Source of the DNA: Trichocoleus sp. FACHB-40
GTDB taxonomy: Bacteria > Cyanobacteriota > Cyanobacteriia > Cyanobacteriales > FACHB-T130
Assembly (NCBI RefSeq): GCF_014695915.1
Contig: NZ_JACJPF010000044.1
Span: forward strand, 124,001 to 188,000
Direction of reading: 5' to 3'
Length of the DNA: 64,000 bases
The position numbers were made by a program, and so were the translations under genes. This document shows positions 832-53,530 of the stretch, piece by piece (the first letter of the stretch is position 1; each line of letters starts with the position of its first letter). The notes under the pieces are model-generated. The model was not told where the DNA came from, did no database searches, and worked only from the letters and a program-made list of their open reading frames with translations.

Positions 832-3800
832 TTAATTTGCTTGTTGGATGGGAATCTCAATCCAAAACTGAGTACCTTTGCCTGGTAGGGAAGAACACTG
901 GAAGACACCGCCGTGTTTTTCCACCACAATTTGATAGCTGATGGATAGTCCCAAACCTGTTCCCTTACCAACTGGCTTAGTGGTAAAAAAGGGATTGAAG
1001 ATTTGCGATCGCACTCCTTCTGGCATTCCGGAACCATTATCGGAAATCTGAATGAGTGCGCGATCGCCATTTCGTACTTTGGTACTAATCTGTATCGTAG
1101 GGATTGCTGATTGGGCAGACTCTTCTGCCAGTCCCACATCAAGAGTCCCCATGTCCAGAGCGTCAATCGCATTGCTGATGACGTTCATAAACACTTGATT
1201 GAGCTGACCAGCATAGCACTCAACTAAGGGCAAATCGCCATAAGCTTTCACAACCTCAATACTGGGAACGTTACCCTTCCCCTTAAGTCGATGTTGCAAG
1301 ATTAACAGCGTACTGTCTAGACCCTCATGGATATCAACTAGCTTCATTTCAGCTTGGTCTAGGCGAGAGAAATTGCGTAGTGACAGCACCAGTTGCCGAA
1401 TGCGATCCGCCCCAACCTTCATCGAGGAAAGCATTTTGGGTAAATCGTCAGCCAGAAATTCTAAATCAATTTCCTCTTGCAGCTTGAGAATCTCAGAGTC
1501 AGGATGGGGATAACGCCGCTGGTAGAGATGCAGCAGATCCAGCAAATCTTGTGCGTACTCACCAACGTGAGCCAGATTCCCATAAATGAAATTGACCGGA
1601 TTGTTAACTTCGTGAGCTACACCCGCCACCAGCTGTCCCAAACTTGACATTTTTTCTGTCTGAATCAGCTGAGTTTGGGTTTGCTGTAGTTCTTTGATAG
1701 TACAAGAAAGTTGTTCTGTCTGCTCTTGGGTTTGAGTTAGGAGTTCAGCTTGCTGTATAGCTATGCCTAGTTGAGCAGCAATCTGGTTGACAAAATCAAT
1801 AGCGGAGGCATCCCAGTGCCGGGGTTCACGGCATTGATGGATACATAGCAGTCCCCACAGTAAATCCCCTTTCAAGAGCGGCACTACCAAGTTAGCTCGG
1901 ACTTGGAATTGCTCTAGAAGCTGGATATGACAATCGTTTAAGCCGGCGTTGTAGATGTCATCAACTATCTGAATCCGACCTTGTTGATAGAGGTGAGCAT
2001 AGTGTTGGGAAAAATGACGATCGTAAACTTTGGTTCCTAAAACAGGCTTAAACTCTGGCAACACGTCTTCTGAAACAAATTCATCATTCTCCGAACCAGA
2101 GGCTGAATATAAGCAAAATACTGCTACTCGGTCGGCTTCTAGCAGTTGTCGAACTTCAGTAGTTGTTGCCTTGAAGATTGTCTCCAGGTCAAGGGATTCT
2201 CGAATTTTGGTAACAACCGCAAATAATGCTTCCTGTTGTTCGGCAGCTTGCTCTAGTTGTTGGGCTTTTTGGGTGGCAATGTCAGCAGCAGCACGACTTT
2301 GTTGGTAGAGTTCGGCTTGTTGAATAGCGATCGCTGCTTGATCCGCCAGCTGTTGCAGTAGCTCTATTTCAGCCTCCTGCCAAATCCTCGTTTTAAAGCA
2401 CTCATGGGCAATGAGCAGTCCCCACAGGTGATCGCCCATCCTAATCGACACGACTAAGTTAGCTTGAACTTGAATATTCTGTAAAAACTTTATATGACAG
2501 GGGTCTAAATCTGACTCTAATACGTTGTTAATAGCCCGAACTCTTCCCTGCTGGTACCGATAGGCGTAGTCCAAAGGAAAGCATTTATCGTCATATATAT
2601 CTCCCAGAATTGAGGTGGCATTGTCTTTCACATCTTCTACGACCACTTCCCCCTGGTAGCCTTTGGTGAACTGGTAAATCACCACTCGATCTGTGGTTAG
2701 CAATTCCCGGACTTCTCGCACGATGCTTTTTAAAATGGTCTGTAAGTCGAGCGTGCTACGAATTTGATCTGTAACCTGCTTCAAGACTTTGGCAAAATCC
2801 AACGATTGCTGCAACTGTTGTGTACGCTCCTGTACCTGACACTCCAGGTTGGTATTCAGAGTCTTCACCTGCCTGTACAGTTCATACTGCTCAATTGCCA
2901 TTGCGAAGTGATGGGCTAAGGCAGCAGCCAGTTCAATGTCTTCTTTTGTCCACTCGCAAGCTTGACCTTTTTTCAGCTCTAGCCAAGCTTCAAACGAGTT
3001 CCGGGGTTGCCACTGTCGCTCATCGGAATCAAAACGTCCCGCCCACAAAGTTTCTGTTTCAATTTCATCTCGAAATACGCTTAAGTAACCGAGAAACTCT
3101 TGACGATACTCCAGGGGTATAACGATCATGCCTCGAATCTTTGTTGGGCGGAATGCTGCTGCTAGCACTCGCAGGCCCGGTTCTTTATATATATCCCTAA
3201 TTGCTACCGGGCTATTGCAGACAGGATCTTGTAATTTAAAGTATTGCTGCCATACAAGACTCTCTTCGAGCAGGCAATCTTTCCTGAGTCCTACTAGCAT
3301 CGGCTGAGCGCCGCAGGTAAACTGTTTACCTCCAAAGCTGGGGTTTTCTGCGGCTATGTAAAGTCTGCCACCGGAACCCTTAAAGGCGGCAACGGTTTCT
3401 ATGAGAGCTTGTTGTACCTCAATCGATGGTAGTGTATGCAGCAGGGTTGCTACTCGGTTAATCTTGGCTTCGATAATTGCTTGTTCGCGAGCGCGTCTGA
3501 GGAGATTTGACTGCGCGATCGCAATTGAAACTTGATCCGCAACTAACTGCACAATTTGCAGTTCCCTTTCGGAAAAAGTACGTGTTTGGGCGTTGTGAGA
3601 AACTAATAATCCCCACAGATGCGGCTGTACTTTGTGTGCCTGTACGTCGTACTGTAAAATCGGCACCACTAAGGAAGACTGCACCCCCATTGCTGTGAGA
3701 TATTCAATATGGCAAGGGTCTACTTCGCGATAGTAAAAACCTTGCGTCTCCAAAGGAATACCAGTTTGGGGACAATCCAGTTGACTTATCCCAATCTTCC

Positions 3801-4131
3801 CTGTAGCAAGATCCACAATTGAACGCCCTCTGGCTTTGATAAACATTTCGCGGGCGTGGGGAGGAATGTCATCTGCTGGAAAATTCAACCCCAGCAGGGA
3901 CGGCAGGCGGTTGTTATAAATCGACTCAGCAATAACTTGCCCGCTACCATCAGCATGAAACTGATAAACTTTGACTCTATCGGTTTCTAGAAATGAACGG
4001 ATCTCGGCAACTGTTGATATTAATATCTCTTGCAATTCTAGAGATTGCCGAATCCGGTTCGTGATTCGATGCAGTAACCCTTCTTGTTCTATTTTTGAGG
4101 GCATATTCTGCGTATTATTACTGAGTTCCAT
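832..4131 (-). CDS. Multi-GAF phytochrome-like sensor histidine kinase (knotless phytochrome + DXCF GAF hybrid)
   Basis: A 1099-residue soluble photoreceptor-type kinase. GAF1 (about residues 25-210) has the phytochrome DIP motif (D88-I89-P90) and the bilin-type Cys-His pair C140-H141 in DPCHIEYL. The next domain (about 220-415) is PHY-like: it carries tongue signatures W363-A-G and PRNSF at 376-380 followed by EAW. No PAS precedes GAF1, so the front resembles Cph2-type (knotless) phytochromes. GAF3 (about 450-610) has DKCF at 515-518 and C545-H546. GAF4 (about 635-800) has DRHF at 704-707 and C734-H735. A coiled coil leads to a HisKA domain with H840 in VAHEVNNP, then HATPase motifs (N978 region, [16 protein letters not shown]). 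No receiver domain is present and no response regulator is adjacent. Bilin binding is inferred, not shown. The ATG at 4131 directly follows an AT-rich intergenic region. Confidence 0.93.
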
Positions 4132-4421: not shown

Positions 4422-4871
4422 TTACAAACGTTGCCGAATTTCTTGGCGGACGCTCATCAGAATTTTGCCTAGATAATTTTGACCAGTTTTATCTTTACCG
4501 CAACCCCAGTAGTAATCGATTTGGGAATCTTCGACAAGTAAGCGATCGCCTGTAGAAAGCAAAATAGACTGAATATCTAAATGGGTGAGAAACTTAATAA
4601 GCACAGCTTCGCGCATAATTTCGGTTTTTAGGCTTTCCCAGTCGGGACGGATGTGGCGAGTGCGATCGCGTCCCAATGTTGCTGCTTGCATTGGTGTCTT
4701 GGCGCTAGCAATCTCTAAAATTAAAGCTTCATCCTTGGTGCCAACAAATTTTTGCGCTTGATAGTAATGCTCTACCGTCGCCCAGTCTTGCCCCAGCAGA
4801 TGAATGCAATGAGGAGAAAAGTTGGAAAAACATCCATATGGATCGTCAACTTTGTAAAAATAAATCGTCAT
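4422..4871 (-). CDS. NADAR family N-glycosidase (YbiA/RibX-like)
   Basis: A 149-residue protein covering a complete NADAR (DUF1768) domain: CFSNFSPH near the N-terminus, WATVEHYYQAQKF around residues 30-42, and the C-terminal YWGCGKDKTGQN.LG element. Characterised YbiA-type members hydrolyse the N-glycosidic bond of early riboflavin-pathway intermediates (damage control); other NADAR proteins act on ADP-ribosylated substrates. Which applies here cannot be told from sequence. It stands alone between the kinase and a TPR gene, both on the same strand but separated by repeat-containing spacers. Confidence 0.9.
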   Translation of the reverse strand: MTIYFYKVDDPYGCFSNFSPHCIHLLGQDWATVEHYYQAQKFVGTKDEALILEIASAKTPMQAATLGRDRTRHIRPDWESLKTEIMREAVLIKFLTHLDIQSILLSTGDRLLVEDSQIDYYWGCGKDKTGQNYLGKILMSVRQEIRQRL

Positions 4872-44735: not shown

Positions 44736-45875
44736 ATGGTTCAAGTTTTGATTATTGATGATGACCCTGCGATTCAGCTATTGCTGAAAAGAACACTCAA
44801 AAGCGAAGGGTACGATTTGACGGTAGCAAGCGATGGCGAAGCCGGGTTAATTCAAGCCCAAGAGTTAAGCCCCGCTTTGGTAATTTGCGACTGGATCATG
44901 CCGCGCATGAACGGACTGGAGGTGTGCCGTCGAATCAAGGCAACGCCAGAACTTTCTACCACCTTCTTTATTTTGCTGACATCGATGGGTTCCGTCGATG
45001 ATCGCGTTAAAGGGTTGGATGCTGGCGCGGATGATTTCTTGTGCAAACCCATTGAAATGAATGAATTGAAGGCGCGAGTGAGGTCGGGCTTGAGGCTGCA
45101 CCAACTCAGCCGGGATTTGAAGCAGCAAAAACAGTTGCTGGAAGACGAATTAGCCGAAGCTGCCGAGTATGTGTGTTCCATTTTGCCCTCGCCCCTGTGT
45201 GATCCACCTGTAACCATCGACTCGCGGTTTATTCCCTCGCGACAGCTGGGAGGCGATGGATTTGATTACTATTGGCTAGATAAGGATCATTTAGTCATTT
45301 ATTTGCTGGATGTAGCTGGACATGGATTGCGGGCTGCCTTACCCTCTCTTTCGGTGATGAATCTGCTGAAGAACCAAGTGATGGCTAAGATTAATTACTA
45401 TCAGCCCAGCGATGTTCTCAAGGGATTAAATGAAACTTTCCAGATGACTCAGCGCAATGATAAATACTTTACCATTTGGTACGGTGTTTATAACCGAATT
45501 AAGCGCACCCTAGTTTACTCTAGCGCTGGACATCCACCAGCCGTTTTAATCTCCGCCAAAACTCCCTTTTTTACCCAAGTAAAACGTTTGAAAACCCCAG
45601 GCTTGCCAGTTGGGATGTTTCCGGATGCAGAATTTATGGATGATTTCTGCGAAGTGGAAAAATCCAGCACCCTGTACATTTTTAGCGATGGAATTTATGA
45701 AATTAACCAGCCAGACGGCAACATTTGGGGGCTTGATGCGTTTGTCCAGGTGCTTACAAGCTGCCGCGACAAGAGCGAGAGTAATTTAGACCGGGTATTG
45801 CGTTCCGTTCAAGTTGTAAACCCTAAAGAATATTTCGATGATGATTTGTCTTTGTTGCAAATCAATTTTCCTTAG
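44736..45875 (+). CDS. Response regulator with SpoIIE/PP2C-type phosphatase domain (RsbU-like)
   Basis: 379 residues. Receiver domain (1-125): VLIIDDDPAI, phospho-Asp in VICDWIMPRMNG, Thr in LLTSMG and Lys in FLCKPIEM. A coiled-coil linker (QKQLLEDELAEAAEYV) leads to a PPM-type phosphatase: RQLGGDGFDYYW, YLLDVAGHGLRAALPSL, SAGHPPAVL and FSDGIYEI hold the metal-binding Asp residues. It should dephosphorylate the STAS protein in a partner-switching pathway when its receiver is phosphorylated. Confidence 0.94.
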   Translation: MVQVLIIDDDPAIQLLLKRTLKSEGYDLTVASDGEAGLIQAQELSPALVICDWIMPRMNGLEVCRRIKATPELSTTFFILLTSMGSVDDRVKGLDAGADDFLCKPIEMNELKARVRSGLRLHQLSRDLKQQKQLLEDELAEAAEYVCSILPSPLCDPPVTIDSRFIPSRQLGGDGFDYYWLDKDHLVIYLLDVAGHGLRAALPSLSVMNLLKNQVMAKINYYQPSDVLKGLNETFQMTQRNDKYFTIWYGVYNRIKRTLVYSSAGHPPAVLISAKTPFFTQVKRLKTPGLPVGMFPDAEFMDDFCEVEKSSTLYIFSDGIYEINQPDGNIWGLDAFVQVLTSCRDKSESNLDRVLRSVQVVNPKEYFDDDLSLLQINFP

Positions 45876-51595: not shown

Positions 51596-53530
51596 TTAAT
51601 TAAGATCATTAATGGGCAACTCTATGGTAAATGTGGTTTGACGATTTTTACTTTCTACTCGCAGGGTACCTCCCAAATGTGCTACTAATTTTTTTACTAG
51701 AGCTAGTCCTAATCCAGTTCCGCCTTGCTTCCAGGGATCGGAACTGGGAATGCGATAGAATTTCTCAAAAATCCGATTTAGTTCGCTTTGTGGAATCTCA
51801 ACTCCAGAATTGATTACGCTCAACTGCATGAGATTTGAGTGGGATATTTCAACAGCTTGGACTGTGAGTGTAATTGTTTCTAATGGGGGGGTGTATTTGC
51901 AGGCATTTTCTAGCAATTCGGTCAATATTCTGGCTAGAGTAGTGGGATCGCAGGTGAAGCAGGGCAAATTGGGGGGGATGTTAAGAAGCAAGGTTTGCTG
52001 GCGGTTTTCGGATCGTTCTTGAAATGGTTCTACAATTGGCGGTAGCCATTCCTGTAGCTGAATTGATGTTAGTAATAAAGGTTGAGCTTCTGTATAGAGT
52101 CGCTGCAAGTCCAAAAGGTCATCAATGAGGCGAATTTCGCGATCGCATTCGTTTTGCAATATTTGAAAGTACCGAGCCACTTTGCTTTGTTCTGCTTTTG
52201 GTTTGCTGAGTTCCGCTAAAAATGGCGAGTCTCGATTAAGGGCGATGGAAAGCATTTGAATCGCCATTTTCATGTTGGCGACGGGGGTGCGTAATTCGTG
52301 AGAAACGGTGTTGAGAAAGTCATCTTTGAGGCGATTGAGATTTTCTAGAGCCTCGACTTGCGATCGCGCTGCTTGATACAATCTCGCTTGGCGAATAGCG
52401 ATCGCGCACTGATTCGCCACTTGCTGCACCAGTCGGATTTCTTTTTCGTTAAAGGCTTCTTGGGGCGGCTTGAATAAGCATAAATCACCTAGCACACCTT
52501 GGTCATCGAAAATCGGGCAAAGAAGTCTAGCGAACGTACCGCGAATATCGGAGCCGAGTGGACAAAATTGGAAATACAGACCGTGCAGAAGCTGATTATA
52601 ACCTTCGCGAAACTCTGCCATTTCCACCAAATGCCCCTGAGCGGTAGGCATTCCCAGAGTATACTCATAGCGAATAGTAGAGGTAGCGCGATCGCTGTCA
52701 TACAAAGCGGTATCGCAGCCTTCTATGTTTAACCCGACGGCTAATTCCCAAACGACTATTTGCAAAATTTGGTTTTCGTCGAGGCTATCGCGTACATCGT
52801 CAGTGATGCGTTTAAGCATCGCTTCAAAGTCGAGGGACTGTTGCAGTTGGGCGGTGCGTTCGCGTACTTGGAACTCCAAGTTAGCGTTGAGTTGCTGCAC
52901 TTGCTGATAAAGTTCTGATTGCTGAATGGCAATTGACACTTGTGTTGCCAATTGCTTGAGCAGATCGATCTCAAACGGTTCCCAGTGACGTTGTGCGGAA
53001 CATTGATGAGTTGCCAGTACCCCCCAAAACTTATTACCGTGCAGGATGGGAGCTACCAAGGCGGCTTTGACTTGCTGTTGCTGCACATACTCGTTGATAG
53101 CTATAGGAAAGCCTTCCTGTTGCATATCATCGATCGCTCTTACCTGTCCCTCGCGATAAACTGCTATCCTTTCTTTAAAAGAGGTTGAGGCAATGTTAAC
53201 CCCTAAAATAGAGGGCCAGGCCGCATCAACTGATTCAGCCACGACTACGGCTTGTTCATTTCCCTTAATTTGGTATATGACAGAGCGATCGCTCTCCAGA
53301 AATTGTCGGATTTCTGCCACCGTAGTATTAAGAACTTCCTCCAAGTTTAGTGACCCTCGGATGCGCTCGGTAATAACCCGAATTACCCATTCTCCTTCAG
53401 CCCTTTGCGAGAGGGCTTTTTCCGCCCGCCGACGCTTGGCGATCTCCTGTTTTAGTTTTTCATTGGCTTCCTGAATCTCGGCGGTTCGTTGTTCAACTTG
53501 CTTTTCCAAATTATTACGATCGCTCTCCAT
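51596..53530 (-). CDS. GAF-GAF sensor histidine kinase (C-terminal remainder of a larger gene)
   Basis: 644 residues from ATG 53530. A coiled coil (QRTAEIQEANEKLKQEIAKR) precedes GAF1 (about 50-205), which resembles bilin GAFs in layout (SVIYQIKGNEQAVVVAE, WGVLATHQCS) but lacks the Cys-His pair where the ligand would be (EYVQQQQVKAALVAP). GAF2 (about 235-385) is a generic GAF. HisKA with H411 in TVSHELRTPVANM and an HATPase with ENACKYTPP, GGTGLGLALVKK; the G1 box reads NSGVEIP instead of DxGxGI. Upstream of 53530 the same frame family continues in a broken PAS region (53531-54055), so this reading frame may not have its own proper start. Confidence 0.85.
   Translation of the reverse strand: MESDRNNLEKQVEQRTAEIQEANEKLKQEIAKRRRAEKALSQRAEGEWVIRVITERIRGSLNLEEVLNTTVAEIRQFLESDRSVIYQIKGNEQAVVVAESVDAAWPSILGVNIASTSFKERIAVYREGQVRAIDDMQQEGFPIAINEYVQQQQVKAALVAPILHGNKFWGVLATHQCSAQRHWEPFEIDLLKQLATQVSIAIQQSELYQQVQQLNANLEFQVRERTAQLQQSLDFEAMLKRITDDVRDSLDENQILQIVVWELAVGLNIEGCDTALYDSDRATSTIRYEYTLGMPTAQGHLVEMAEFREGYNQLLHGLYFQFCPLGSDIRGTFARLLCPIFDDQGVLGDLCLFKPPQEAFNEKEIRLVQQVANQCAIAIRQARLYQAARSQVEALENLNRLKDDFLNTVSHELRTPVANMKMAIQMLSIALNRDSPFLAELSKPKAEQSKVARYFQILQNECDREIRLIDDLLDLQRLYTEAQPLLLTSIQLQEWLPPIVEPFQERSENRQQTLLLNIPPNLPCFTCDPTTLARILTELLENACKYTPPLETITLTVQAVEISHSNLMQLSVINSGVEIPQSELNRIFEKFYRIPSSDPWKQGGTGLGLALVKKLVAHLGGTLRVESKNRQTTFTIELPINDLN

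Follow-up and report, generated by a model that had tools for sequence, protein, structure and literature searches.

The kinase gene at 832-4131 on the reverse strand of the window, i.e. the whole 64,000-nucleotide stretch of Trichocoleus sp. FACHB-40 DNA analysed here, raises the question of whether a GAF domain located next to a phytochrome module employs a second cysteine in its photochemistry, so that a single kinase would combine a short-wavelength response with red/far-red sensing. According to our reading, to which we assign a probability of about 0.8 on the basis of sequence comparisons, the product is a light-sensing histidine kinase with three bilin sites: a red/far-red GAF1-PHY module, a dual-cysteine GAF3 and an adduct-free GAF4. 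Its role would most likely be the merging of red/far-red light, blue light and a third colour into one phosphorylation output. The protein is apparently soluble and comprises the following features:

832..4131, minus strand: hybrid photoreceptor histidine kinase of 1,099 aa, GAF1-PHY-GAF3-GAF4-kinase (from the ORF, Pfam and relatives)
3484..4095, minus strand: GAF1, bilin-binding domain of a PAS-less phytochrome (from motifs and phmmer matches to 8w26 and 6oza)
2842..3483, minus strand: PHY domain with the tongue motifs WAG (residues 363-365) and PRNSF (residues 376-380, window 2992-3006) (from Pfam and motifs)
2242..2784, minus strand: GAF3, predicted dual-cysteine (DXCF) cyanobacteriochrome domain, residues 450-630 (from phmmer, alignment and model)
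2578..2589, minus strand: DKCF, residues 515-518, with C517 at 2581-2583 as the predicted second cysteine (from sequence and conservation)
2497..2499, minus strand: C545, canonical bilin-attachment cysteine of GAF3, forming a CH pair with H546 (from sequence and conservation)
1711..2241, minus strand: GAF4, second cyanobacteriochrome-type domain, residues 631-807, with the canonical C734, followed by His, at 1930-1932 (from sequence and alignment)
2011..2022, minus strand: DRHF, residues 704-707, with His706 at the second-cysteine place of GAF4 (from sequence)
832..1686, minus strand: histidine kinase output with H840, within AHEVNNP, at 1612-1614 (from HATPase_c and motifs)

Pfam matches in this ORF comprise GAF in three stretches, PHY and HATPase_c. 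GAF1 carries RIT at residues 22-24 (4060-4068), PADDIP at residue 85 and C140, which is followed by a histidine, at 3712-3714. Its phmmer matches include 8w26 (SyB-Cph1) and 6oza, the GAF1 entry of All2699 (PMC6696110). The PHY domain was matched by Pfam over residues 333-415 (whole-protein E 2.6e-10) and features, in addition to its tongue motifs, a WX(D/E) motif read from the kinase sequence as W383-L384-E385, while no N-terminal PAS is listed by Pfam at E <= 0.001. Judged by the missing PAS, the RIT motif, the bilin cysteine and the tongue motifs, GAF1-PHY is a PAS-less (group II) phytochrome module. The initial annotation was thus right in placing a phytochrome module beside GAF3, as RIT, PADDIP, C140, WAG, PRNSF and the Pfam PHY match all attest. 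At the C-terminal end, AHEVNNP (839), NVISNAID (983), DNGSG (1031) and GKGTGLG (1055) represent the phosphoacceptor histidine and the N and G boxes; with these ATP-binding boxes and the phosphoacceptor the output is by its motifs a histidine kinase, for which Pfam reported HATPase_c only and no HisKA match.

The central observation of the initial annotation, namely that C517 of DKCF precedes C545 of the CH pair by exactly 28 residues, was confirmed on the sequence (545-517 = 28). The asserted identity of this spacing with that of TePixJ is borne out as well, since phmmer aligned GAF3 to 3vv4 without gaps (query 7-163 to chain 38-194, 112 bits), placing DKCF opposite DPCF and DPCH opposite TECH. 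The range 2540-2625 that had been assigned to the motif pair (about residues 503-531) includes C517 but excludes C545. In addition, the "true" spacing loses its standing as independent evidence, for H706 and C734 of GAF4 are also 28 residues apart, with a histidine at the second site. The distance follows from the lack of indels in this stretch, and therefore only the cysteine discriminates. GAF3 does possess sequence and fold features of a DXCF domain: the cyanobacteriochrome GAF fold, the cysteine of the CH pair, and Asp-X-Cys-Phe in the position homologous to that of TePixJ. In a second genome of the species, GAF3 likewise has DKCF and CH. Between these two genomes pN/pS in GAF3 is about 0.24, based on 13 changes, so changes in this domain appear mostly constrained.

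Conservation, which weighs more than the spacing, was assessed in an alignment of 36 GAF3 rows and 181 positions, consisting of the window and 35 others, all from phytochrome-hybrid kinases; L063 and L064 stem from a scan seeded partly with DIYDDKCF, the rest of these 35 from motif-free protein searches. The equivalents of C517, C545 and C578 are cysteines in 36/36 hybrids (window included). Of the 181 positions, 24 are invariant, C517 being one of these, and the mean column identity is 57%. Phenylalanine at F518 and proline at P519 are each retained in 33/36 rows, and histidine at H546 in 35/36. On the contrary, the two residues preceding the invariant second cysteine vary, and D515 of the DXCF motif is aspartate in only 13 of the 36 hybrids and another residue in 23. 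As judged from these columns, selection is keeping the second cysteine of GAF3, not the aspartate; the 23/36 domains without it would go undetected in a search restricted to D-X-C-F. Many GAF3 domains with Cys-Phe-Pro, or nearly so, feature P, S, E, K, G, L, N, H or Q in place of the aspartate, for instance L044, L046, L047, L050-L052, L054, L056, L057, L063 and L064, among others. Eleven of the 13 rows with aspartate fall into the window's 20-row half of the GAF3 tree and one, L045, into the other half; the remaining one, L162, is outside this tree, from which L161 and L162 were dropped.

The surroundings of the bilin may nevertheless deviate from those of TePixJ, in which D492 and Q526 are the residues toward which the bilin twists (PMC6955287). 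These align to D515 and F549, the latter position, as paired by the TePixJ alignment, being phenylalanine in 35/36 GAF3 domains; therefore, the tuning of GAF3 may differ. By the same token, the part of the GAF3 clade in which the aspartate is missing may be differently tuned.

A GAF3 model derived from the 36-row alignment (mean pLDDT 85.9) matches TePixJ closely in both comparisons, with a Foldseek E of 2.7e-18 and 36% identity over the alignment for 4fof, and a VIA Z of 23.8 with an rmsd of 2.1 over 149 residues for 4glq. The closest solved sequence to GAF3 is 6oap (PPHK; phmmer, 137 bits). Since 6oap and miRFP670nano, neither of which has the DXCF cysteine, match the model equally well or better than TePixJ, the fold does not mark the DXCF class. 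In a FastTree phylogeny of 154 domains, GAF3 belongs to a 29-row clade with support 98 that stands separate from TePixJ. Deep branches are weak, however, and TePixJ, the only named DXCF reference in this tree, is marked as a long branch whose position is uncertain; L001, L006, L013, L015-L018 and L029 were left out. Owing to this separation, the exact colours of TePixJ are not transferable to GAF3. The window GAF3 groups with L033/L034/L037 (98/94) and the window GAF1-PHY with L031/L032 (88). An exchange of the window GAF3 with another lineage is not claimed, as a grouping of the window with L031 and L032 is only marginally rejected for GAF3 (p-AU 0.042).

As to the chemistry, the host genome encodes a PcyA equivalog (339 bits against a cut-off of 206), and therefore phycocyanobilin should be available. 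In the proposed mechanism, the pigment would be attached at C140 of GAF1-PHY, which would sense red/far-red light, and at C545 of GAF3. In the dark state of GAF3, an adduct of C517 at bilin C10 would interrupt the conjugated system, so that this form would absorb in the blue. Blue light would then isomerise C15 and break the C517-C10 bond; the resulting state would absorb green or orange light according to whether or not the bilin has been converted to phycoviolobilin. GAF4, with its attachment cysteine and His706, would switch without a C10 adduct and absorb at longer wavelengths. The inputs of the three sensors would travel along helical linkers to one kinase (H840). For DXCF domains, addition of the second cysteine to C10 is the described mechanism, typically yielding blue/green photocycles with phycoviolobilin (PMC11284453). 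However, tabulated DXCF domains include both TePixJ, 430/530 nm with PVB, and NpF4973, 435/600 nm with PCB (PMC4469895); thus, a two-cysteine domain need not be blue/green. Dual-cysteine photochemistry in GAF3, as proposed in the initial annotation, is hence likely and is supported as a prediction by the homologous site, its invariance, the fold and PcyA, but the blue/green type put forward along with it cannot be singled out: a blue-absorbing dark state is predicted, for whose photoproduct green and orange are both possible.

Other explanations of GAF3 have to be weighed against this proposal. The bilin could be bound at C545 while C517 forms no stable C10 adduct and only aids isomerisation or positioning, which would render GAF3 a teal, green or orange sensor. 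The missing aspartate in 23/36 domains and the phenylalanine at the Q526 position in 35/36 would be in line with such a role, because they point to a pocket unlike that of TePixJ, and the functions of the second cysteine are separable, given that AM1_6305g1 isomerises its bilin without one (PMC11284453). Nonetheless, the cysteine is invariant in 36/36 although its two preceding residues vary, and reversible C10 addition is what is described for the second cysteine of DXCF domains (PMC11284453, PMC4469895), so that we regard an adduct-free GAF3 as unlikely. Far less probable is a structural or redox domain that has lost photosensing in this organism: GAF domains free of bilin cysteines do occur in the genome, e.g. 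in the kinase at 51596-53530, yet in the GAF3 family the bilin cysteines are conserved throughout, the changes separating the species' two genomes appear largely constrained and PcyA is present. Finally, a motif of four letters is short enough to arise by chance in a GAF domain of another kind, but the ungapped alignment to TePixJ and the invariance of both cysteines contradict a chance resemblance of DKCF, the cyanobacteriochrome fold matches speak against it as well, and we give this explanation practically no credence. Dual-cysteine photochemistry thus remains the preferred reading of GAF3.

A genome search with GAF3 yielded 51 matches, 30 of which were given as loci. Of 31 GAF-like placements scored in these 30 loci, 17 have a cysteine at the canonical place; in 8 of the 17, with GAF3 and a DTCL domain among them, the second site is a cysteine, too. 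As the placements were anchored by blastp, this two-cysteine count is approximate where matches are weak. The above-mentioned GAF histidine kinase at 51596-53530 on the minus strand shows STSF and AI at the aligned positions, both bilin cysteines being missing, and by its sequence is probably not a usual bilin sensor. A frame of 1,941 residues at G000:C126:7319-10519 (L005, L013, L015-L018) contains at least 6 tandem GAF matches, with CH in six placements, five of which feature DTYF, and thus represents an extended array of bilin-type GAFs. Outside this genome, L108 (Chloroflexaceae MAG SM1_2_4) is a cyanobacteriochrome-like GAF that was placed with cyanobacterial sequences although its contig carries a Chloroflexota label, as would result from either mis-binning or transfer.

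In the class sample, 64/388 genomes (own included) match the GAF1-PHY-GAF3 stretch at E <= 1e-120, a number that is an upper bound for the exact arrangement, because some match by GAF1-PHY alone and some have a GAF4-type domain in third place. Among the loci inspected, 46 proteins, the window kinase included, contain GAF1 and PHY; 27 of them feature a GAF3-type domain only, 9 a GAF4-type domain only, 9 both, as does the window kinase, and 1 neither. Domains were typed by their blastp scores against GAF3 and GAF4 of the window kinase. The protein with neither type is L080, in whose frame PHY is not followed by a cyanobacteriochrome match; it belongs to the 46 but to neither of the two counts. 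The loci of this census are best matches to the window protein and hence biased toward it; L006, L029 and L140 were dropped as window copies, and L043, L046, L050 and L051 as duplicates of L144, L147, L155 and L156. The GAF1-PHY-GAF3-kinase arrangement is exemplified by L063 (uncultured Nostoc) and L064 (Microcoleus vaginatus WJT46-NPBG5), whereas the five-domain kinase occurs in 6/6 genomes covered from the window's family (own and the second genome of the species included), three of which, G002, G003 and G004, also encode a kinase paralogue without GAF4. By these counts, the combination of a GAF3-type two-cysteine domain with a phytochrome in one cyanobacterial kinase is a known one and not rare.

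GAF4 follows a different course. The window domain has His706 in place of a DXCF second cysteine, and among 18 GAF4 rows (window included) the second site is occupied by cysteine in 11, histidine in 4 and tryptophan in 2, with a gap in 1, while the attachment cysteine is retained in 16/18. The histidine row L169 reads WHDTHL and may be of another kind; as this fits WXDXXL, the pattern of red/green domains (PMC11284453), L169 is perhaps red/green. L036 (G006:C56) has lost five residues at the DXCF site and carries tyrosine for the attachment cysteine, and its GAF4 has probably stopped binding bilin covalently.

The two congeners G003 (L031) and G004 (L032) share 94% identity in GAF1, 92% in PHY, 94% in GAF3 and 85% in the kinase but only 65% in GAF4, where identity to the window amounts to 83% for G003 and 66% for G004. 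Without indels between L031 and L032, the best mosaic segment spans residues 608-787, with a mismatch of 0.36 inside and 0.07 outside (residues below 960) and a log-likelihood gain of 45.3, compared with at most 10.3 in 30 shuffles. At the nucleotide level, identity in bins of 20 residues is 98, 90 and 100% across 541-600, falls to 82% in 601-620 and 52-77% across 621-800, and returns to 93% in 801-820. A grouping of L031 with L032 is rejected in the GAF4 tree (p-AU 0.005), and in the GAF1-PHY tree, a quick tree that omitted L080, a grouping of the window, L031 and L036 without L032 is rejected (p-AU 2e-8); these groupings were picked after the identities and the first tree had been seen, which makes the p values optimistic. 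On account of the identity drop, the mosaic segment and the tree tests, a one-module exchange is read from the sequences: GAF4 is exchanged in frame, with histidine at the second site in G003 and cysteine in G004 (L171, L172). The identities further suggest that G003 was the recipient and that the source was closer to the window's lineage. Fast divergence of GAF4 instead of exchange is disfavoured, given that third codon positions fall too, from 65-100% identity in nearly all outside bins to 35-65% in the bins between 601 and 800. Within the ATP-binding domain of the kinase, L031 and L032 also show amino acid identities of 63-80% in 20-residue bins at about residues 981-1040, below their surroundings.

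The exchange may alter the colour that is sensed. We consider it somewhat probable that relatives in this family of kinases exchange individual colour-sensing GAF modules by recombination, with the phytochrome, the first cyanobacteriochrome and the kinase being passed on as a unit, so that in G003 and G004 the input colour of GAF4 would be swapped with length and output kept. Domain by domain, two close pairs with GAF4 were compared, G003/G004, the two genomes covered from their genus, and the window with G452 of the same species, where identity is 96-99% in each domain and no exchange is seen.

With respect to a partner, the NADAR-domain gene at 4422-4871 on the minus strand adjoins the kinase and is also its neighbour in G001, G003, G004 and G017. 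The order of NADAR, TPR protein and FAD oxidoreductase beside the kinase is conserved in G003 and G004, and the first and third of these genes are found in G017; G001 retains the NADAR neighbour, and in G006 that side lies beyond the contig. No response regulator is present among the listed downstream ORFs over about 12 kb, as judged by translations with two ORFs scanned, nor among eight scanned upstream ORFs within 4.4-13.3 kb. A response regulator with a SpoIIE domain at 44736-45875 is about 40 kb away and not linked to the kinase. A distant partner may be approached by analogy with All2699, which we take to be the protein termed AphC. AphC acts on the cyclase CyaC (PMC4284465), and this pair provides a lead to such a partner of the kinase.

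Taken together, the pairing of a DXCF domain with a phytochrome is already known, and the window kinase adds one well-supported member to it, while GAF3 itself is ordinary for cyanobacteria; of more interest are the variable second site and the exchange of GAF4. The kinases of G003 and G004 differ mainly in GAF4 and its second-cysteine site and thereby offer a test of retuning by single-domain exchange. If the exchange reading is true, they constitute a matched natural pair for studying how the same kinase responds to one of its colour inputs.

Among known systems, Cph2 of Synechocystis PCC 6803 resembles the window kinase in combining a PAS-less (unknotted) phytochrome with a two-cysteine blue/green cyanobacteriochrome in one protein, but is described with a GGDEF/EAL output for cyclic di-GMP, another domain order and a single cyanobacteriochrome (PMC5812497). 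All2699 of Nostoc PCC 7120 shares the PAS-less GAF1-PHY (there GAF1-GAF2), a bilin-binding GAF and the histidine kinase; by its description, however, the third GAF absorbs at 645/595 nm rather than in the blue, and one cyanobacteriochrome GAF is present instead of two (PMC6696110). SyB-Cph1 (8w26) likewise unites a GAF-PHY module bearing RIT with a histidine kinase, and the available account differs in describing no cyanobacteriochrome domains (PMC11264168). PPHK of Leptolyngbya JSC-1, a dual-sensor histidine kinase (6oap), also has a cyanobacteriochrome GAF in a histidine kinase, though it reads DQYF at the second-cysteine site and hence has no DXCF cysteine; it is reported as phosphorylation-responsive, with a green Pg state at 562 nm (PMC11480761). 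TePixJ (3vv4, 4fof, 4glq), on the other hand, shares with GAF3 the homologous DXCF and CH cysteines, their distance of 28 residues and the fold, but stands apart in the tree, has Q526 where GAF3 features phenylalanine, and is annotated as a chemotaxis receptor.
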